Assembly: GCA_030447305.1 (NCBI GenBank) | Contig: JAUJPC010000002.1 | Location: 62,001-126,000, forward strand | DNA length: 64,000 bases | Source of the DNA: Actinomycetota bacterium | GTDB taxonomy: Bacteria; Actinomycetota; CADDZG01; JAHWKV01 | Direction of reading: 5' to 3' | Shown: positions 32,598 to 44,335 of the stretch, piece after piece | Position numbering within the stretch: the stretch's first letter is position 1 | Layout of the letters: every line of letters begins with the position of its first letter | Notes under the pieces: model-generated | Database searches by the model: none | Seen by the model: only the letters and a program-made list of their open reading frames with translations | Told to the model about the DNA's origin: nothing | Translations under genes and position numbers: made by a program

Positions 32598-34730
32598 CTA
32601 GTCGTCGGCCTCACGCTGCGCCTCACGCAGACGCCGGCGCTCTTCACGCATCTGATCCCGTAGCCCATCTGTCTGGTCATCGATCTGCTCACGCAATGCC
32701 TCGCCGGGATCCCTGCCGGAGCAGAACGGAAAGCATGGCGGGAACTCGATGCCCGGCCCGTTCGGTTCAGGGTCCGGCTCCTGCACCCGAGGAGCCGGAG
32801 GCCGGTGGCTGATGATCTCGCCGGTAATCCTGGGGTCCTGGAAGTCCCCGGCGGGGATGCCCTGCAGCGCTTTGGTCATGAAGTTCTTCCATATGGTGGC
32901 CGGGAACGAGCCGCCGGTCACGGACCTGCCGCGTAGCCTGGTCATCACCGGGATGTGTCCCTGGGGGTCGGGCGCATAGCCCATCCAGACCACCGCGGTC
33001 AGCTCGGGGGTGTATCCGGCAAACCACGCGTCCTGGAAGTTCTCAGTGGTACCGGTCTTGCCGGCCGCAGGTCGTCCGATCTTGGCGCCGGTCCCGGTTC
33101 CCGACTGGATGTTCTGCTCCAGGATGTGGTTCACCGTGTCTGCAACGTTCGCATCCATGACCTGAGTCACCGACGGCAGCCGCTCGGCCACCGCCGCTCC
33201 GGTGGGCCGGACGATCTTGGTGACCACGTTGGGGGTGGGACGGCGGCCTCGCTGGGCGAACGTGGTGTAGGCGCCGGCCATCTCAAGAGGAGTAACGTCG
33301 GAGGTGCCGAGGGTCAAGGCGCAGCCTGAGTCCGACGCCGGAATTGCGATGCCGGTCTTGGCGGCCACTTCGATGAACTTCTGCGGGGTCACCACCTCAT
33401 CCATCATCTGGGCGTAGATCGTGTTGACCGAGTTGGTAGTGGCTCCGGTCACGTCCAGGTAGCCGTAGCCTGCGTTGCTGTAGTTCGATACCCTCCAGGG
33501 CTTGTTGCCGTTCCGGCAGCGGTCCGAGTTGATGCTGATGGTCGACGTTCCCGAGAAGGTTGACCGTATGGACTTGCCCTCCTCCAGGAATGCGGCCAGC
33601 GTGAATGTCTTAAAGGCCGAGCCTGCCGGGCGTCCGCCGCCTGACCCGTTGACGTCGGCCGCAAAGTTGAACCCCCGAGCCCGGTCGATGCTGTCGACGT
33701 CACGGCCGCCCACCATCGCCCTCACTCGACCCCGCGGATCCATAGCCACCAGGGCGGCTTCGGGGTCGGTTGGGCGGTTGAGGACACTGCGCACAGCGGC
33801 CTCCGCGGCGTCCTGCATACGCAGGTCCAGCGTCGTATGGATTGCAAGGCCGCCTCGCAGGATCTCCTCGTCGGTGAGCTTGAACTCCGACTTCAACAGC
33901 CGCCGAACGTACTCGAGGAAGTAGCCGGCCCGGGCGGAGTCCACCTCAATCGATATGCCGGGCTTGAATTGAGCAACCAGATCCTCTGCTTTGGCGGACG
34001 CTGCAACATCGGGTGCCATCAGGTTCAGCTCCACCTGTCGATCGATGACCGCGTTGCGCAGGCTCTGCGCCTTGGCGGCGTCTTCGTCGATCTGATATCG
34101 CTGAGGTGCCCGGATCAGCCCCGCCAGGTACGCCGACTGTCCGGGGGTGAGCTGGGCCGCCGGCACCTTGAAGTAGGTCCGGGCTGCCGCTTCTGCGCCG
34201 TAGGCCCCGCGGCCGAAGTACACGGTGTTGAGGTAGTGCTCGAGGATCTCCTCCTTGGAGGAGTTGCGCTCGAGCTTGACTGCCCAAAAAGCCTCTCTGA
34301 TCTTGCGGGCAAAGCTCCGTTCGGTTCCGACCTGGGGAAACGCATGGCGCACGTACTGCTGGGTGATGGTCGACCCTCCCTGAAGTGCGCCGCTGCCCTG
34401 CCAGTTCTCCCGGGCGGCACGAAAGATCCCCCTGAAGCTGAAGCCGTTGTGATCGAAGAAGGTCCGGTCCTCGACGGCGATCACTGCCAGCTTCAGGTGA
34501 TGAGACATCTGCTCCAGGGGCACCAGGGTGCGATTTTCCTCGCCGTGAAGGGTGCCGATGGCCTGGCCGTCGGCGGCGAGGATCTTGGATGACTGGGCGG
34601 AGGGAGCGATCGCCGGCAGAGGAACGTTGGCCAGCCATAGGAAAACTCCAGCGACGCCCAGAACGGCTGCTACGGCCAGCACCCTGTACCGAGCTATGCC
34701 GGCCATCCGTGGCCACCCGAGACCAATCAT
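32598..34730 (-). CDS. Class A penicillin-binding protein
   Basis: VEDRTFFDHNGFSFRGIFRA, QGGSTITQQYVRH, NTVYFGRGAYGAEAA (GT51); AAGKTGTTENFQDAWFAGYTP (transpeptidase KTG). Confidence 0.92.
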   Translation of the reverse strand: MIGLGWPRMAGIARYRVLAVAAVLGVAGVFLWLANVPLPAIAPSAQSSKILAADGQAIGTLHGEENRTLVPLEQMSHHLKLAVIAVEDRTFFDHNGFSFRGIFRAARENWQGSGALQGGSTITQQYVRHAFPQVGTERSFARKIREAFWAVKLERNSSKEEILEHYLNTVYFGRGAYGAEAAARTYFKVPAAQLTPGQSAYLAGLIRAPQRYQIDEDAAKAQSLRNAVIDRQVELNLMAPDVAASAKAEDLVAQFKPGISIEVDSARAGYFLEYVRRLLKSEFKLTDEEILRGGLAIHTTLDLRMQDAAEAAVRSVLNRPTDPEAALVAMDPRGRVRAMVGGRDVDSIDRARGFNFAADVNGSGGGRPAGSAFKTFTLAAFLEEGKSIRSTFSGTSTISINSDRCRNGNKPWRVSNYSNAGYGYLDVTGATTNSVNTIYAQMMDEVVTPQKFIEVAAKTGIAIPASDSGCALTLGTSDVTPLEMAGAYTTFAQRGRRPTPNVVTKIVRPTGAAVAERLPSVTQVMDANVADTVNHILEQNIQSGTGTGAKIGRPAAGKTGTTENFQDAWFAGYTPELTAVVWMGYAPDPQGHIPVMTRLRGRSVTGGSFPATIWKNFMTKALQGIPAGDFQDPRITGEIISHRPPAPRVQEPDPEPNGPGIEFPPCFPFCSGRDPGEALREQIDDQTDGLRDQMREERRRLREAQREADD

Positions 34731-34995: not shown

Positions 34996-37900
34996 ATGGC
35001 CAACCTTCCAGTAACCCCTCTCTCTCGAAAGGGCCTTGGCCGGCGTGCCCTGTCGGATCTGAGAGACAGAGTCCGGGTTGGGGTCGACTCAGTTCCGCAG
35101 TTGCAGATGCCTGCCGTCCGGTGGGCGGTCGGGGTTTTGTTACTCCTGGTGCTGATCGGTCTGGCGACTGCGATCTTCGCCCTGTACCTGATGTTTGCTC
35201 CGATCAAGCTGCCCGAGCCCATCGAGGGATCGAAGGCTGCCACTACCCAGATACTGGCGACCGACGGAAGTGTGATCGAGCAGTGGCATGGCCCTATCAA
35301 CCGTACCTTCGTCGAGTTGGACGACATGTCGAAGCACCTTCGAGAAGCGGCCATCGCAGCGGAGGACGCCCGCTTCTACAAGAGGGGCGCGGTGGATCTC
35401 AGGGCAGTTATGCGGGCAGCCAAGGCGAACCTGGTCAACGCTTCCTTCGTCCAGGGGGCCTCAACCATCGGCCAGCAGTATGCGAAGAACGTCTACGTCG
35501 GTAACGACCCCTCCCTGTCGCGCAAGGTCCGGGAGGCCAGGGTTGCGTATCGGCTCGAGAGGGACCTGGGCAAGGACAAGGTGCTCGAGGGCTACCTCAA
35601 CACCGTCTACTTCGGCCGCGGCGCCTACGGCGTGGAGGCGGCATCCAAGATTTATTTCGGAAAGGCCGCTTCCGACGTAAGCGTCTCGGAGGCGGCATTG
35701 CTGATCTCGATGATCCGGTCGCCCGACGGCTACTCCCCCTACCGGCACCCGGTCAAATCCGAAGCTCGAAGGAAGTGGGTGCTGGAGCGCATGCAAGGGG
35801 TGGGCTTCGCCACGCGCCAGGAGGTCCGAGAGGCCGAAGAACATAAGCCGGCGCTCATTCCCGCTTCGGAGGCCCATCCGAGATACGGGTGGTACATGGA
35901 CGCGCTGCGAACCTATCTGCTGCGCCGGTACGGCAGCGAGAAGGTTTATTCGGGGGGTCTTAAGGTACAGACCACGCTCGACCCGCAGGCTCAGGAGGCG
36001 GCCGAGGTAACCATTGGCAACACCCTTCCGGCCGCAACCGACCCGTACGCGGCCCTGGTCTCCATAGACCCCGCCACCGGTTACGTACTCGCCATCGTCG
36101 GCGGCAGGGATTACTCGGACGAGAAGTACAACATCGCCCTGCAGGGGCGGCGCCAGCCGGGCTCGGCGTTTAAGCCCTTTGTGCTGGTGGCTGCGCTGGA
36201 GAAGGGGATAACGGCGTCTGCCGGATACCGGGCACCAAGGAGCATTTGCCTCAAGGGGTGGAAGCCCTCATGCGTCTCGAACTACGGCGGTTCCGGTTAC
36301 GGGTACCTGAACCTGGAACAGGCCACGATCAACTCGGTCAACACCGTTTACGCCCAGCTGGTCCTTGACGTCGGCCTCAAGAAGGTCGTCGACGTGGCCC
36401 GCCGCATGGGGATTCCCGGGCCCGAGTGGATGCCTCCCCGCTCGGCGTGCCGCCCGTCGCCGGACGACGCTTGTCGGACTCGGCTGCAGCCAGTTCCTGC
36501 GATGGCGCTGGGAACCGAGGAGGTGACGCCTCTGGAGATGGCATCGGCGTACGCCACGCTGGCGGCTGGGGGCGTCTATCGCGAGCCGAAGCTCGTCTCC
36601 CGGGTAGAGGACGCTGATGGACGGGTGCTGGAGGAGGGGCCGTCGGAGCCTCGACAGGCCATCCCACCCCAGGTCGCGGAAACGGTTAACGGGATCCTGT
36701 CCAAGGTCATTGCCCAGGGAACCGGCACGCGGGCAGACTTCGGCCGGCCGGCAGCCGGCAAAACCGGGACCGCCCAGGACTTCAGCAACGCCTGGTTCTC
36801 CGGCTACACCCCCCAGCTGGCCACGGCCGTGTGGATGGGTCACCGCAGCGGCAACCGGCCTTTGCTGAACGTCCACGGGGTTCGACAGGTCGCCGGCGGC
36901 ACCATGCCCGCCGAGATGTGGCGCGAGTACATGAAGGGGATAAGTGATCGGACTCCTCCCACCGTCGAGCTTGGAAAGGCGGTCGACGACGGTGCCTTGA
37001 CCCGCGACAAGGCCCTGGCCTTTGAGGGAAGCGCCGCCGACGCAGACGGCATGGTGCAGGGAGTGGAGCTGAGTATCGACGGGAGCCCCTTTACCTCGGC
37101 CGGGGTCGTGTGCTCAAAGTGCCCGGGACCCGAGGTGAGGTGGACCTACAGGTCCACTGCCGCCCTCCAGGACGGCGAGCATGTTATTGCCATCCGGTCC
37201 TTCGACAAGCCCGGGCACCGCTCGGAATCGCAGACACGGACCGTCACTGTAGACACCCGGCCGCCGGCTCCGAGCAAGTTGACGGCAACCGGTGGCGCCG
37301 ACGGGGTCAAGGTCGTTTTCAACGAGCCGGTGGCCTGCGGCTCCGTATCCGCGGGATCGTTTGCCATAACCGTCGACGGCGACCGCGCCACGGTGCGGTC
37401 CGCCGGATGCAGCGGGGGCTCCAGCACAGCCGTCGACCTAGGGCTGGCCAGGCCGGTCCCGGGAGGTGGCCAGCTAACCGTGGACCTCCGTCGTTCTTCC
37501 CGCTCTGTGGCGGACCCGGCCGGGAATCGGGCTGCCGGCGCTCCATTGCGTATCTCAGCTACGAACAAGGCACCGTCGGTGGAGCTGGACCCGTCAAGTG
37601 ACCGACTACCGTTCACCGCAAAGGAAGTCGAGATAACCGGAGCCGCCACCGATCCGGACGGCACGCTGAAAGGCCTGGCCGTCAGTGTGGACGGGGCGGG
37701 GTTCTCGTCTGCAGGCCTTAGCTGCAGGGGTTGCGGCCGGGGAGCCAGCGGTGCCTGGCAGTACCGGCCCGTTGTTCCCCTTTCGCACGGAAAGCACAGG
37801 CTGGCGTTCCGCTCCGAGGACAACGCGGGGGTCATGTCCAAGACTCGGAACCGGACGGTGACGGTGGATGCGGTAGCTCCATCTCTCGAAGCGATCACCG

Positions 37901-39441
37901 CCACCGGCGGCAGTCCCCTCATAAAGGTCGGATTCGGTGAGCCCATATCCTGCCTGGGTCTGAGTCCTCAGGCCTTTGGAGCCTCAAGCGACGGGCGTAG
38001 AGTTCCCGTCGAGTCGATCTCGTGCAGCGGAGAGGCGACTCAGGCACTGCAGATGACGCTTGGCAGACCGGTACGTGGGGGCGACCGCCTCTCAATTACC
38101 ATCTTGCGCCGGTCGGGAGCTCCGGCCGATGTTGCAGGAAACCTCGCCGGCTCAGATAGCCGCTCCGCCGAGGCGACGAACCTGGCTCCTATACTCGACC
38201 TGGCGCCGAGTCCCGCAGGAGGTCCCGTCGCCGGCTCGGGCGTGGAGGTGGACGGGACGACCATTGACTCCGATGGGATCATCGAGGCAGTGGAGGTATC
38301 GGTCGACAGTGGTCCGTACTCGGCGACCGGAGTCGATTGCACGGGATGCGGAGAGGGAAACGAGGTTCGATGGGGCTATGAGCCCGGCTCGCCTTTGGCC
38401 AACGGCAAGCACACGCTGGCTTTCAGGTCGGTGGACAACGCCGGCGTGCGATCGCCCTCCCTCTCCCGCAGCGTGACTGTGGACTCTGTCGCACCGTCGG
38501 TTCAGCAAATCACTTCGGCGGGGGGCAGCGCCGTTGTGGAGATCGCATTCAGTGAGCCGGTGGCGTGCACGGCCAGTCCGGCGGCTGAGTTCCAGGTGGA
38601 GGTTGGTGGCCGGAGGGCTGGAGTGCTGTCGATGGTTTGCGAAGGGCCGAAGGCCATGCTTACCCTGAGCCGCGTGCCCGGCGGGGGTGAGCGGGTTGAC
38701 ATCGTGGTGCGCGGGCCCTCGCGAAGCCGTCAGGTTTTGACCGACACGGCGGGCAATCCGGCTTCGGCGGCAAGCAAATCGGTGACGGCGGCAAATCAGG
38801 CGCCGGTGCTTCGCCTCTCGACTCCTGCTTCCGAGTTGTCCTCCAGCTCCTTTCAGAATGTCGGTGACTCAATCACCATTGAGGGCGAGGCTTCAGATCC
38901 GGACGGGACTATCCGGGACGTTGAGGTGAGCATCGACAACGGCCCCTTTTCCAAACGTGGAGTCAAGTGCCGGGGATGCGGCAAGGAGCAGAAGGTCACC
39001 TTCGCTATCGACGTGAAACAGGTTGCCACCCCGGGTCTGAGCAACGTATCGGTTCGAGCAAGGGATTCGGCGTCGGCATTGTCCGGCCCAACGAACTCGA
39101 GTCTGAGTAACGATGACTCCGAACCGGTGCTCAAGCGGATTTCCGCGGAGTCCGGGGTTCCTACTCTGACCGCCGCTTTCAGCGAACCGGTCGTCTGCTC
39201 CACCGTCGAGGCCGTGGATTTTGCCGTCAGAGTTCAGGGTGCTCGCCGGCCCGTGCTCACCGTGGGTTGTTCGGGCGAGCTGCAACAGGAGCTCACTCTT
39301 AGGATCTCCGGGCGGATGAAAGCTCGGGACTTACTCTCCATGGAAGTCAACGGCACGGTGCAAGATGCCGCGGGAAACCTCGTTACTCCCGGCACCGTCA
39401 AGCGAATGACCATCCCGAAAGCCACTAAATCGAAAGGCTGA
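34996..39441 (+). CDS. Class A penicillin-binding protein with long C-terminal repeat region
   Basis: GT51 (AEDARFYKRGAVDLRAV, QGASTIGQQYAKN, NTVYFGRGAYGVEAA) and transpeptidase (PGSAFKPF, AAGKTGTAQDFSNAWFSGYTP), then ~800 aa of repeats. Confidence 0.92.
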   Translation: MANLPVTPLSRKGLGRRALSDLRDRVRVGVDSVPQLQMPAVRWAVGVLLLLVLIGLATAIFALYLMFAPIKLPEPIEGSKAATTQILATDGSVIEQWHGPINRTFVELDDMSKHLREAAIAAEDARFYKRGAVDLRAVMRAAKANLVNASFVQGASTIGQQYAKNVYVGNDPSLSRKVREARVAYRLERDLGKDKVLEGYLNTVYFGRGAYGVEAASKIYFGKAASDVSVSEAALLISMIRSPDGYSPYRHPVKSEARRKWVLERMQGVGFATRQEVREAEEHKPALIPASEAHPRYGWYMDALRTYLLRRYGSEKVYSGGLKVQTTLDPQAQEAAEVTIGNTLPAATDPYAALVSIDPATGYVLAIVGGRDYSDEKYNIALQGRRQPGSAFKPFVLVAALEKGITASAGYRAPRSICLKGWKPSCVSNYGGSGYGYLNLEQATINSVNTVYAQLVLDVGLKKVVDVARRMGIPGPEWMPPRSACRPSPDDACRTRLQPVPAMALGTEEVTPLEMASAYATLAAGGVYREPKLVSRVEDADGRVLEEGPSEPRQAIPPQVAETVNGILSKVIAQGTGTRADFGRPAAGKTGTAQDFSNAWFSGYTPQLATAVWMGHRSGNRPLLNVHGVRQVAGGTMPAEMWREYMKGISDRTPPTVELGKAVDDGALTRDKALAFEGSAADADGMVQGVELSIDGSPFTSAGVVCSKCPGPEVRWTYRSTAALQDGEHVIAIRSFDKPGHRSESQTRTVTVDTRPPAPSKLTATGGADGVKVVFNEPVACGSVSAGSFAITVDGDRATVRSAGCSGGSSTAVDLGLARPVPGGGQLTVDLRRSSRSVADPAGNRAAGAPLRISATNKAPSVELDPSSDRLPFTAKEVEITGAATDPDGTLKGLAVSVDGAGFSSAGLSCRGCGRGASGAWQYRPVVPLSHGKHRLAFRSEDNAGVMSKTRNRTVTVDAVAPSLEAITATGGSPLIKVGFGEPISCLGLSPQAFGASSDGRRVPVESISCSGEATQALQMTLGRPVRGGDRLSITILRRSGAPADVAGNLAGSDSRSAEATNLAPILDLAPSPAGGPVAGSGVEVDGTTIDSDGIIEAVEVSVDSGPYSATGVDCTGCGEGNEVRWGYEPGSPLANGKHTLAFRSVDNAGVRSPSLSRSVTVDSVAPSVQQITSAGGSAVVEIAFSEPVACTASPAAEFQVEVGGRRAGVLSMVCEGPKAMLTLSRVPGGGERVDIVVRGPSRSRQVLTDTAGNPASAASKSVTAANQAPVLRLSTPASELSSSSFQNVGDSITIEGEASDPDGTIRDVEVSIDNGPFSKRGVKCRGCGKEQKVTFAIDVKQVATPGLSNVSVRARDSASALSGPTNSSLSNDDSEPVLKRISAESGVPTLTAAFSEPVVCSTVEAVDFAVRVQGARRPVLTVGCSGELQQELTLRISGRMKARDLLSMEVNGTVQDAAGNLVTPGTVKRMTIPKATKSKG
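36958..39420 (+). repeat. Four ~205-aa tandem extracellular repeats in the PBP C-terminus
   Basis: Repeat starts near 36958 (PTVELGK), 37571 (APSVELDP), 38185 (APILDLAP), 38801 (APVLRLST), ~613 bp period; each has D.DG.....VSVDGGPFS..G..C..CG followed by a T/G-rich half with F.EPV.C. Confidence 0.85.
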
Positions 39442-40096: not shown

Positions 40097-40672
40097 ATGG
40101 ACGCCGACTTCGTAGACGAGGCCGTAGAGGGCTGGGCCCGCGAAGTTCCACGCCTACAAACCTCTGCTCTGGAGATCACCGGTCGACTCGAGCGGATTGC
40201 CCGCCATCTCGACCGAAGGGCCACCGAAGCTCTGACCGAGTCAGGCCTCAGCTGCCGGGACCTTGAGGTTCTGGGCGCCTTGCGCCGTTCGGGATCCGGC
40301 CTCCCTGCCGGACGGCTCGCAAAGGCGGCCATGCTCACGTCAGGCGGAATGACGGGGCAGGCTGACCGCTTGGCGAACGCCGGACTGGTGGTGCGGCACC
40401 CCGATCCCGGAGACCGCAGGGCGGTTCTGGTTAGCCTTACGCCTGAGGGCGAAGGAGCGGCCGAGGATGCAGTGAAGGCATATCTGGCGGCAGGGGAGGA
40501 GGCGCTCATGGTTTTGAGCGACAGCGAACGCTCCGTTCTTGCCGAGCTGCTACGAAAGCTCCTGGTGGGTCTGGAGGGTCCAGCGCAGCGGTCCGAGCCC
40601 TCAGAGGATTCCGTAACGAAGCCGGCAAAGGCGGGGACAAGCCGGGACAAACGGCGCTTTCATGAAGCATAG
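40097..40672 (+). CDS. MarR-family transcriptional regulator
   Basis: LSCRDLEVLGALRRSG...LAKAAMLTSGGMTGQADRLANAGLVVRHPDPGDRRAVLVSLTPEG. Confidence 0.9.
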   Translation: MDADFVDEAVEGWAREVPRLQTSALEITGRLERIARHLDRRATEALTESGLSCRDLEVLGALRRSGSGLPAGRLAKAAMLTSGGMTGQADRLANAGLVVRHPDPGDRRAVLVSLTPEGEGAAEDAVKAYLAAGEEALMVLSDSERSVLAELLRKLLVGLEGPAQRSEPSEDSVTKPAKAGTSRDKRRFHEA

Positions 40673-40719: not shown

Positions 40720-41538
40720 CTATGCCCGTTTCTCACTCACATCGCGAACCGGCACCGAAGTTGCCGACCTGACCAGGGCCCTCAGGATGGTGCCTGCCAC
40801 GAACCGGTTGCCCGCCGAGTTCAGGTGGATGCCGTCGACGGTCAGGATGCCGCTGTGCCTTCCGTTGCGGTTGCGGCCCGCAAGGTGCTCCGAGAACTCG
40901 CTCCGCAGGTCACACAGGCCGGTTTGGTTCTCTGCAGCGACCTCTCGAGCTGCAGAGGCGTACCGCTCGAGGGCCAGGTTGGTGAAGGATCCGTCGTCAA
41001 GGTTTTCCCCGATGACTCCCGGCGTGCAGATCATTACCCAGGCGCCGGCGTCCCTGATTCGGGTTACGAGGCCGATAAGGTCCTCACGGTAGGCTTTCTC
41101 CCCCTCAGTCAGAGCAGCGTTGCTGCTACCGAGGCTGGCAACATCGTTCACCCCGACGTATATCACCACGTGGGTGGGGTTGCGGGCCAGCACATCCCGC
41201 CGGAGCCGAACGATAAGGTCTGAAACCTTGTCGCCGACCACGCCCGATCCCACGACGTTGATTTCCCGGCCCGGGTACAGGCCCTCGAGCGCATCTGCGA
41301 TCAGAGTGACATAGCCGTCCTCTTCGACGCCCCCTGCAGTGATTGAATCTCCGAAGAACACAACTCGTGAGCCGTCCCGCAAGTTGGCCTTCACTCCCGC
41401 AGTGATGCCGTACCGCCTTTCGACCGCTTCACGCCGCAAGTCCCGGCCGTCGAGCTCCTCTCCCCTCGAGCATGCGATCAGTGCGACCAGGATGATGCAC
41501 ACCAGCCGGTTGAGAACGCTGAAGCCGCCAAACCACAT
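40720..41538 (-). CDS. SGNH/GDSL hydrolase, probable lipoprotein
   Basis: VVFFGDSITAGG, YVGVND, DGIHLNSAGNRFVA; N-terminal VCIILVALIAC lipobox-like. Start chosen inside the 41598 ORF. Confidence 0.78.
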   Translation of the reverse strand: MWFGGFSVLNRLVCIILVALIACSRGEELDGRDLRREAVERRYGITAGVKANLRDGSRVVFFGDSITAGGVEEDGYVTLIADALEGLYPGREINVVGSGVVGDKVSDLIVRLRRDVLARNPTHVVIYVGVNDVASLGSSNAALTEGEKAYREDLIGLVTRIRDAGAWVMICTPGVIGENLDDGSFTNLALERYASAAREVAAENQTGLCDLRSEFSEHLAGRNRNGRHSGILTVDGIHLNSAGNRFVAGTILRALVRSATSVPVRDVSEKRA

Positions 41539-41814
41539 CTCTTCGAGTGTAAGGGCCGCGAGTCCCGAAAAATGTAGGAGCTCGGGAAGAAAATCCATAT
41601 TGAGGCATTGACGACCGCCTGTGGGATCCGTATCGTACGGTCTTGCCCCAAGAGGCAGAAGGAACCCAGGCCAGCGTTGGCCGGGCCCGCAAGGGCCAGG
41701 GCCGCGGAGGTCAGGGAACCGGACGTTTCTTGGGGCACTATCTTTTTCCGAGTCTTGCCCTCCGATGGCCCCACCATTTACCTATACTTCCTTCGGTTTG
41801 CGGGGCAAAACCTA

Positions 41815-42097: not shown

Positions 42098-44335
42098 ATG
42101 TTCTCCTTAACCAAAGACGGCAGGCCATCCACCCTGGCATGGGTTCTGATCGGCACGGCCGTCGCCGGGGTCCTTGCGATTGTTGCGCTGGCGGTGGTCG
42201 TGCTGACCGTCAGGGTGCCTCTTCCGGAGGCGGCCCCCGGAGGCCAGGCCACCGAGGTGCTCGACTCCAAGCGCAAGGTCATAGGTACCTTGAGGGGAGA
42301 GCAAAAGCGCAAGATCGTCCCCCTTTCCGAGATTTCACCGCTCCTACAGGAGGCGGTGGTCTCCACCGAGGACCGCCGCTTCTTCCAGCACTCCGGCATC
42401 AGCTTCCGGGGAATGGTCCGGGCGCTGTTCACCAACGTTCAGGCCGGCGGAGTCCAGCAGGGCGGGTCCACCATCACCCAGCAGTACGCCCGAAACGCTT
42501 TCGGCCGGGTGGGGACCGAACGCACCATCCTGCGCAAGGTGAAAGAGATCTCGCTGGCTCGCAGGATAGAGAACAACTACTCGAAGCAGAAGATCCTCGA
42601 GTTCTACCTGAATACCATCTACTTCGGCCGCGGTGCCTACGGCGCGGAGGCCGCTGCGCTGACCTATTTCAAGAAGCCGGCCAAGGATCTGACGCTCAAC
42701 GAAGCGGCCTATATGGCAGGAGTTATCCGGGCACCCGAGCGGTTTCAGCCGGACGAGGATCCGGAGGTCGCCGTCCGCATTCGCAACGAGGTTCTGGGCG
42801 ACATGGTTTCCACCCGCAAGCTCACCGAGGCTGAGGCCGGGGAGGCCAGGGCCGCCGACCTCATCGGGCAGTTCAAGCTGGGCCCGACGCAGCTCGACAC
42901 CGCACGGGCAGGTTTCTTCATCGAGCACGTCCACCGGCTCCTCCGCACCGAGGAGTACGGCTTTTCGGACGCCGAGCTTCTGGGAGGGGGTCTGAGGATC
43001 GAAACCAGCCTGGACCTGACCATGCAGGAAGCGGCCGAGAAGTCGGTGTCATCCGTGATGAACCAGCCGGACGACCCGGAGGTGGCGCTCGTGGCGATGG
43101 ACCCCGAGGGAAACGTGCGAGCCATGATCGGGGGCCGGGACGTGGGTGACCGAGTTCGTGCGCTGGGGTTCAACTTCGCTGCCAACGTCCGGGATGACGA
43201 CGACGGGGGCCGCCAGGCGGGATCGGCGATGAAGCCGGTGGCGCTGACCTCCTTCCTGGAGCAGGGCGAGGAGGTGTCGACAAAGTTCCAGGGCCCGGCA
43301 CGCATCACCATCAACGAGCCCTTGTGCCGGGATGCCGGAGGACAGCCGTGGACGGTTTCGAACTTCGACGGCGCCAGCTACGGCACCGTGGACGTCACCC
43401 GGGCTACGGCGGACTCGGTTAACACCGTTTACGCCCAGGTCATGGCGAAGTTTGTGACCCCGAAGGAGTTCATCGCCACCGCCGGCCAGCTCGGTATCTC
43501 AATTCCCGCCCACGACGAGGGCTGTGCCCTGACGCTCGGGACAACGTCGGTCACCCCCCTGGAGATGGCCGGGGCCTTCACCACGTTTGGCGCCCGGGGC
43601 AACCGGCCGGAGCCACTCTTGATCACTCGCGTCACCGGACCGGACGAAGAAACCCTCCTCGACAGGCGGCCTACCACCGACCGGGTGATGGGCGAGGACG
43701 TGGCCGACACCGTCAACCAGGTGCTGCAGCAGGTGATCAATGACGGAACGGCGAAGGGAGCCGGGATTGGCCGGCCGGCAGCGGGCAAGACCGGTACCAC
43801 GCAGAACCACGTCGACGCCTGGTTTGCCGGTTACACCCCCGACCTGACCGCGGTGGTCTGGATGGGCTACCCCCCGGAAGAATCGGGCAGGATCCCCGAG
43901 ATGACCAACGTCCGTGGACGGCGGGTCACCGGAGGTTCGTTCCCGGCCACCATCTGGAAGGGCTTTATGCAGGAGGCCCTGAAGGGCACGAAGCCCACCG
44001 ATTTCGTCAAGCCGGAGGAACCTCTGCCCCCACCCGCCCCGGCACCCGTATGTCCGCCGGAAACGATTGTCGGACCCGATGGCGGATGCATCCCGGCGTC
44101 TATACCGGAGCCCTACATCCCTGAGCTGCAGCCGATCCCGCCCCCGCCCCCGCCCCCGCCCCCACCCCCGCCCCCGCCGCCCCGGCCGGTCCGGCCGGTG
44201 GTCCCGCCGCCCCGGCTGCAGCCTCCGGCGCCGAGTCCGACGCCGAGCTTGAGCCCGACCCCCACGTCGACTGTGAGCCCTACCCCTCAGGCGCTCTCAG
44301 CCGCTGGCGAGCCGCAGGGGAAGAAGCGGGAATAA
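42098..44335 (+). CDS. Class A penicillin-binding protein with Pro-rich C-terminus
   Basis: STEDRRFFQHSGISFRGMVRA, QGGSTITQQYARN, NTIYFGRGAYGAEAA; AAGKTGTTQNHVDAWFAGYTP; tail PPPPPPPPPPPPPPPPRPVRP. Confidence 0.92.
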   Translation: MFSLTKDGRPSTLAWVLIGTAVAGVLAIVALAVVVLTVRVPLPEAAPGGQATEVLDSKRKVIGTLRGEQKRKIVPLSEISPLLQEAVVSTEDRRFFQHSGISFRGMVRALFTNVQAGGVQQGGSTITQQYARNAFGRVGTERTILRKVKEISLARRIENNYSKQKILEFYLNTIYFGRGAYGAEAAALTYFKKPAKDLTLNEAAYMAGVIRAPERFQPDEDPEVAVRIRNEVLGDMVSTRKLTEAEAGEARAADLIGQFKLGPTQLDTARAGFFIEHVHRLLRTEEYGFSDAELLGGGLRIETSLDLTMQEAAEKSVSSVMNQPDDPEVALVAMDPEGNVRAMIGGRDVGDRVRALGFNFAANVRDDDDGGRQAGSAMKPVALTSFLEQGEEVSTKFQGPARITINEPLCRDAGGQPWTVSNFDGASYGTVDVTRATADSVNTVYAQVMAKFVTPKEFIATAGQLGISIPAHDEGCALTLGTTSVTPLEMAGAFTTFGARGNRPEPLLITRVTGPDEETLLDRRPTTDRVMGEDVADTVNQVLQQVINDGTAKGAGIGRPAAGKTGTTQNHVDAWFAGYTPDLTAVVWMGYPPEESGRIPEMTNVRGRRVTGGSFPATIWKGFMQEALKGTKPTDFVKPEEPLPPPAPAPVCPPETIVGPDGGCIPASIPEPYIPELQPIPPPPPPPPPPPPPPPRPVRPVVPPPRLQPPAPSPTPSLSPTPTSTVSPTPQALSAAGEPQGKKRE

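Follow-up and report, generated by a model that had tools for sequence, protein, structure and literature searches.

The gene described here encodes a class A penicillin-binding protein (PBP) with a long C-terminal tail of bacterial Ig-like domains carrying invariant cysteine pairs. It lies in a 64,000-nucleotide stretch of an Actinomycetota contig (the window, to which coordinates refer). The best explanation for the protein, and a fairly probable one, is a wall synthase with a disulfide-stabilised Ig rod (6–10 domains across relatives) that would serve as a spacer, anchor or docking arm. The parts (class A PBP, Big domains, disulfides) are all known; the combination and its length are unusual.

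Gene and catalytic core

The coding sequence and its domains are listed in Table 1. The N-terminus of the 1481-aa protein aligns with that of a homologue in a genome of the same genus (G001, JAJCYF010000126.1), and everything past the membrane helix is predicted to be extracytoplasmic. A motif check of the glycosyltransferase domain identifies E123/D124, STIGQQ (156) and RKVREAR (176), and the transpeptidase domain contains SAFK 390 (S390–K393), SVN 447 (S447–N449) and KTGT 589 (K589–G591). Every catalytic motif of a class A PBP is intact, and the protein is predicted to have peptidoglycan polymerase and DD-transpeptidase activity. Class A PBPs of the PBP1A family (TIGR02074) have a single N-terminal membrane helix, as predicted here, and share PF00912 and PF00905 with all motifs; however, the enzyme described here adds 828 aa of Ig-like tail. 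At window positions 35452–35483 the glycosyltransferase motif reads GASTIGQQ, where homologues have GGSTITQQ or GGSTISQQ; an effect of this variant on glycosyltransferase activity is possible.

Table 1. Features of the PBP gene, in window coordinates
Feature	Position	Strand	Basis
Complete coding sequence, 1481 aa, class A PBP with Ig-like tail	34996..39441	+	Uninterrupted open reading frame
Single N-terminal membrane helix (predicted), ~residues 41–68	35116..35199	+	Read by eye from RWAVGVLLLLVLIGLATAIFALYLMF, and homology to type II class A PBPs
Glycosyltransferase domain PF00912, residues 91–267	35266..35796	+	Pfam E 2.5e-59
Transpeptidase domain PF00905, residues 354–613	36055..36834	+	Pfam E 1e-35
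Tail unit 1: Big_7/Big_13-like domain (C706, C709) and Big_5/SWM-like domain (C781, C805)	36955..37566	+	
Tail unit 2 (C910, C913; C986, C1010); modelled as two all-beta domains (pLDDT 94.2)	37567..38181	+	
Tail unit 3 (C1115, C1118; C1191, C1215)	38182..38811	+	
Tail unit 4 (C1325, C1328; C1401, C1425); furthest diverged of the four, with the last unit of G001 as its orthologue	38812..39438	+	

The known PBP tails were ruled out as the identity of the C-terminal region, since in Pfam the protein matches neither BiPBP_C (PF06832), the C-terminal domain of PbpC/PBP1C, nor PASTA domains; its PbpC equivalog score of 467 is well short of the cut-off of 900. An assembly artefact or a fusion with a neighbouring gene was also ruled out, since this architecture recurs in three further genomes. 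Among plasmids, a search gave no record with 80% coverage of the protein; the best matches listed fall on the PBP core.

Three class A PBP genes occur close together between window positions 32598 and 44335, at 32598–34730 (-), 34996–39441 (+, the present gene) and 42098–44335 (+). Two of them are separated by a MarR-type regulator (40097–40672, +) and an SGNH/GDSL hydrolase (40720–41598, -), which could act on wall polymers. In all, the genome (2.9 Mb) encodes seven class A PBPs, along with six L,D-transpeptidases of the YkuD type.

Paired Ig-like domains of the tail

The tail consists of residues 654–1481 (828 aa). The span assigned to it by a sequence-only reading of the window (36958–39441) is indeed the in-frame tail behind the transpeptidase domain of the 1481-codon reading frame, and the four C-terminal units of ~205 aa described there are confirmed. 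At the sequence level, similarity between the units is far above chance, unit 1 showing 40% identity to unit 2 (BLASTP E 5e-44) and 30% to unit 4 (E 2e-21). Each unit, however, consists of two Ig-like domains and not of one repeat, a point missed by that reading, and a single novel repeat fold of ~205 aa is thereby ruled out. Domain A, the first half of the unit, contains the CxxC motif and matches Big_7 (PF17957) and Big_13 (PF19077), while domain B matches Big_5 (PF13205) and SWM_repeat (PF13753). The Pfam scores exceed the cut-offs for the protein as a whole (Big_13, 67.9 bits versus 27; Big_7, 62.0 versus 24.1; Big_5, 38.2 versus 23.6; SWM, 32.2 versus 27), individual domains often falling below them. 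Compared with these families, the tail variants are distinguished by their invariant cysteine pairs. The matches of the units are to bacterial Ig families in general. No characterised family of PBP tails, a match to which would have spoken against the sequence-only reading, is among them.

Structure prediction of one repeat, which that reading had proposed, was carried out with AlphaFold2 using unit 2 and 10 sister units. The model (pLDDT 94.2) is nearly all beta and forms two domains. Its best PDB matches in Foldseek are the mycobacterial L,D-transpeptidase LdtMt2, followed by Bap, titin and SiiE, with intimin also matched; they include the isolated BIg domains A–B of LdtMt2 (4hu2, E 8.9e-7). 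TM-scores over both domains are low (0.3–0.5), so the matches support only the domain class and not the inter-domain arrangement. Viral matches are to Ig-like proteins of many kinds and are uninformative. SiiE (2yn3) is the only solved protein matched by sequence with the tail alone. The all-beta Ig sandwich of the tail domains appears solid, although it is a predicted and not a solved fold. A model of the transpeptidase with unit 1, for which three sequences were used, reached a pLDDT of 51 and was too poor to enter the conclusions.

LdtMt2 (PDB 4hu2/5d7h), the source of the top fold matches, is an actinobacterial wall-crosslinking enzyme fused, as here, to tandem Ig-like domains, and the comparison indicates that actinobacterial crosslinking enzymes do use such domains. 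However, its catalytic fold is different, and one or two Ig domains come before the catalytic domain, whereas eight follow it here, with paired cysteines. The Ig domains of LdtMt2 sit between the membrane and the enzyme, preceding the catalytic domain, while those of the present protein are on the far side of the enzyme, which makes the analogy only partial. In mycobacterial L,D-transpeptidases the number of BIg structural domains is one or two (PMC12729407). SiiE and other giant BIg adhesins (PDB 2yn3, 2yn5) form a rod of Big-type Ig domains, as in the tail, but SiiE is not an enzyme and is stiffened not by disulfides but by Ca2+, bound at the domain interfaces through aspartates (PMC5466336). 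A type I site of SiiE has three Asp ligands at each interface between domains. Additional stiffening of this kind is possible in the tail, where Ca2+ might be bound via the conserved aspartates D29, D42, D84, D100 and D187 of the unit.

Cysteine pairs

The CxxC motif and the F.EPV.C element reported by the sequence-only reading are both real. The former occurs as CSKC (706/709), CRGC (910/913), CTGC (1115/1118) and CRGC (1325/1328), and the latter, as F-x-E-P-[VI]-x-C, at 775, 980, 1185 and 1395. Overlooked in that reading was a partner 24 residues on from the cysteine of the second element (781/805, 986/1010, 1191/1215, 1401/1425), which gives one cysteine pair per domain, as well as two further conserved pairs in the PBP core (418/426 and 485/493). 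The protein has 20 cysteines, an even number, with none in residues 1–417; by the predicted topology all of them are extracytoplasmic. Totals in the four enzymes with this tail (20, 16, 20 and 24) are all even, with no cysteine in the cytoplasmic or membrane part.

Across 16 units from four genomes (24–66% identity), C53, C56, C128 and C152 (unit numbering) are invariant, as are G25, D29, G32, S40, D42, D84, S90, P104, D187, G190 and N191. The residues inside CxxC vary freely (SK, RG, TG, RR, GR, AG, QG, SA, PG, TA, PV). In the unit 2 model C53 lies in strand 51–54 and C56 in the next turn, ahead of strand 61–66, while C129 and C153 come right after strands 118–128 and 148–152.

A search for the repeat outside PBPs, another of the proposed checks, found cysteine-bearing modules of this kind in non-PBP surface proteins. 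A secreted non-PBP of 2956 aa in another genome (G274) contains five Ig domains with CxxC ('VTCTDCDTASATWSY' etc.), several Big_5 domains with a C..C pair and one CxxxC variant, in which the pair is kept and the spacing has drifted. An SLH-domain protein of G299 also has a C..C Big_5 domain. The CxxC therefore belongs to the Ig module and not to PBPs. The 2956-aa protein (L088:1513-10380, G274:C33) begins with N-terminal YWFVASDGGIF repeats, followed by >12 Big_12/Big_13/Big_5 Ig domains. Some other class A PBPs have different C-terminal regions. In Acidimicrobiales MAGs (L110:3849-6659, L120, L114) the tail is also cysteine-rich, with repeats of the form C-x-PG....D-x-NGDG-x-xD-x-C that resemble thrombospondin type 3 or calcium-binding loops between paired cysteines. 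Two more (L147:1192-3582, L168:6234-8633) have a shorter C-terminal region that by eye resembles one Ig-like domain, with no Pfam match.

The tail cysteines probably form structural disulfides, one per Ig domain and eight in all. This assignment is favoured because the cysteines are invariant and even in number in an exported region, because the genome contains a VKOR gene and actinobacteria rely on oxidative folding of exported proteins, and because equally cysteine-bearing domains occur outside PBPs. Exported proteins of actinobacteria have mostly even cysteine numbers and depend on oxidative folding (PMC9974433), and mycobacteria show the same dependence (PMC12421883). A search of the genome limited to the thioredoxin family PF13462 gave no DsbA-like partner.

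The earlier proposal of a disulfide- or metal-stabilised scaffold is thus supported in its first half, on the Ig-like fold, the invariant and even cysteines, VKOR and the modules in other actinobacterial surface proteins, but not in its second, there being one isolated pair per domain and no other conserved Cys or His ligands. Metal binding and redox activity by the CxxC are both unlikely. Since the motif travels with the Ig module, a metal or redox site specific to the PBP is not expected. CxxC is a typical half zinc site, and another bacterial Ig rod, that of SiiE, is stiffened by metal, namely Ca2+ (PMC5466336). However, zinc-knuckle-like binding with one ion shared between domains is highly improbable with just two cysteines per domain and no conserved His, a spacing of 24 residues in domain B and an oxidising compartment; a metal knuckle as such was ruled out on ligand count. 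It is equally hard to credit that the CxxC hairpins sense or shuttle thiols and so switch the synthase on and off. The spacing is of the thioredoxin type and invariant in 16 units, and VKOR is present, but the motif lies in an Ig beta-hairpin, the residues between its cysteines are free to vary, a conserved active-site proline or acid is absent, and proteins other than PBPs share the hairpin, in one case as CxxxC. A thioredoxin-like CxxC oxidoreductase was ruled out by the model, in which the fold around CxxC is Ig.

Distribution and proposed role

The tail was searched for in 101 relatives and then in 24 genomes of the class. A 4-row alignment as the query retrieved it; a single-protein query gave no match. 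Three other genomes among the 24 have it, one of the same genus (G001, Actinomycetes bacterium isolate OFTM18) and two of the same order (G007, JAOPZY010000159.1, Actinobacteria bacterium isolate RYN_267; and G006). The respective proteins have lengths of 1270, 1497 and 1709 aa and contain 3, 4 and 5 units. The tail was not found in the other 20 genomes of the class, two congeners included. The PBP core is widespread in the class, and at loci where the C-terminal end was read the C-terminal regions of the remaining class A PBPs span only ~70–180 aa and are mostly low-complexity and Pro/Ser-rich, some PASTA-like. In its own genome the tail occurs on this one of the seven class A PBPs. No further PBP with these units was found among 397 genomes of the phylum, where matches were called non-PBP reading frames by motif search and, for a sample, also by Pfam. 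In the genomes searched, the combination seems to be confined to a single order of uncultured Actinomycetota.

The most dissimilar pairs of units share 24% identity. A tree of the units groups first with first and last with last within each family, and the middle units vary in number by lineage. This pattern suggests that the tail is old in the order and grows and shrinks in the middle. Near-neutral accretion, in which Ig units were gained by shuffling and kept as harmless, would fit the variation from 3 to 5 units, the absence from the other 20 genomes (congeners included) and the six tail-less paralogues. It is nevertheless very unlikely, as two families of the order retain the tail with invariant cysteines and core motifs, and the first and the last unit each show positional conservation.

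The favoured explanation, a synthase with a stabilised rod, can be put as follows. The C-terminus of a bifunctional peptidoglycan synthase would be drawn out into a rod in which four A–B pairs give eight alternating Ig-like domains. After export, VKOR-linked oxidation would close one disulfide per domain, a CxxC hairpin in A and a C..C pair in B, to give a stiff, protease-resistant stalk of ~30 nm if fully extended (estimated from ~4 nm per Ig domain). The rod would have no chemistry of its own. Projecting outward from the transpeptidase into or through the wall, it would act as an anchor, a spacer or a docking arm and so determine the place at which the synthase works. This outward role, with its predicted binding of the wall or of a partner, is less certain than the domain architecture. 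The exact number of units is presumably not critical, since it ranges from 3 to 5 between relatives.

Alternatively, the tail could be a stalk for adhesion or surface display that crosses the wall, its outer domains binding other cells, minerals or matrix and the PBP serving mainly as a membrane and wall anchor. The tail shares its Ig classes with SiiE, Bap and intimin, another actinobacterial family has long secreted surface proteins with equivalent modules, and the last unit is the most diverged yet conserved by position within each family. We consider this unlikely, however, as the retention of all PBP catalytic motifs indicates selection for enzymatic function, no binding domain is recognisable at the end of the tail, and a stalk of ~30 nm might scarcely reach past a Gram-positive-type wall.

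A more specific form of the rod explanation is a clade-specific class of synthase in which a disulfide-locked rod of 6–10 Ig domains couples the enzyme to a wall polymer or surface layer. As a ruler or tether, its length would set the depth in the wall, or the distance from the membrane, at which new material is fixed. This is a speculative and rather unlikely proposal; no description of such a ruler or tether was found for any PBP. A literature search for PBPs with Ig or FN3 tails returned nothing relevant, which is weak evidence as subscription papers were mostly outside the search.

Antibiotics target class A PBPs, which usually act near the membrane. An enzyme with up to ten Ig domains past its active site, encoded alongside six paralogues that lack the tail, provides a natural comparison for the role of long extracellular appendages on wall synthases. 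It also identifies a cysteine-bearing pair of Ig modules common to a PBP and other actinobacterial surface proteins.
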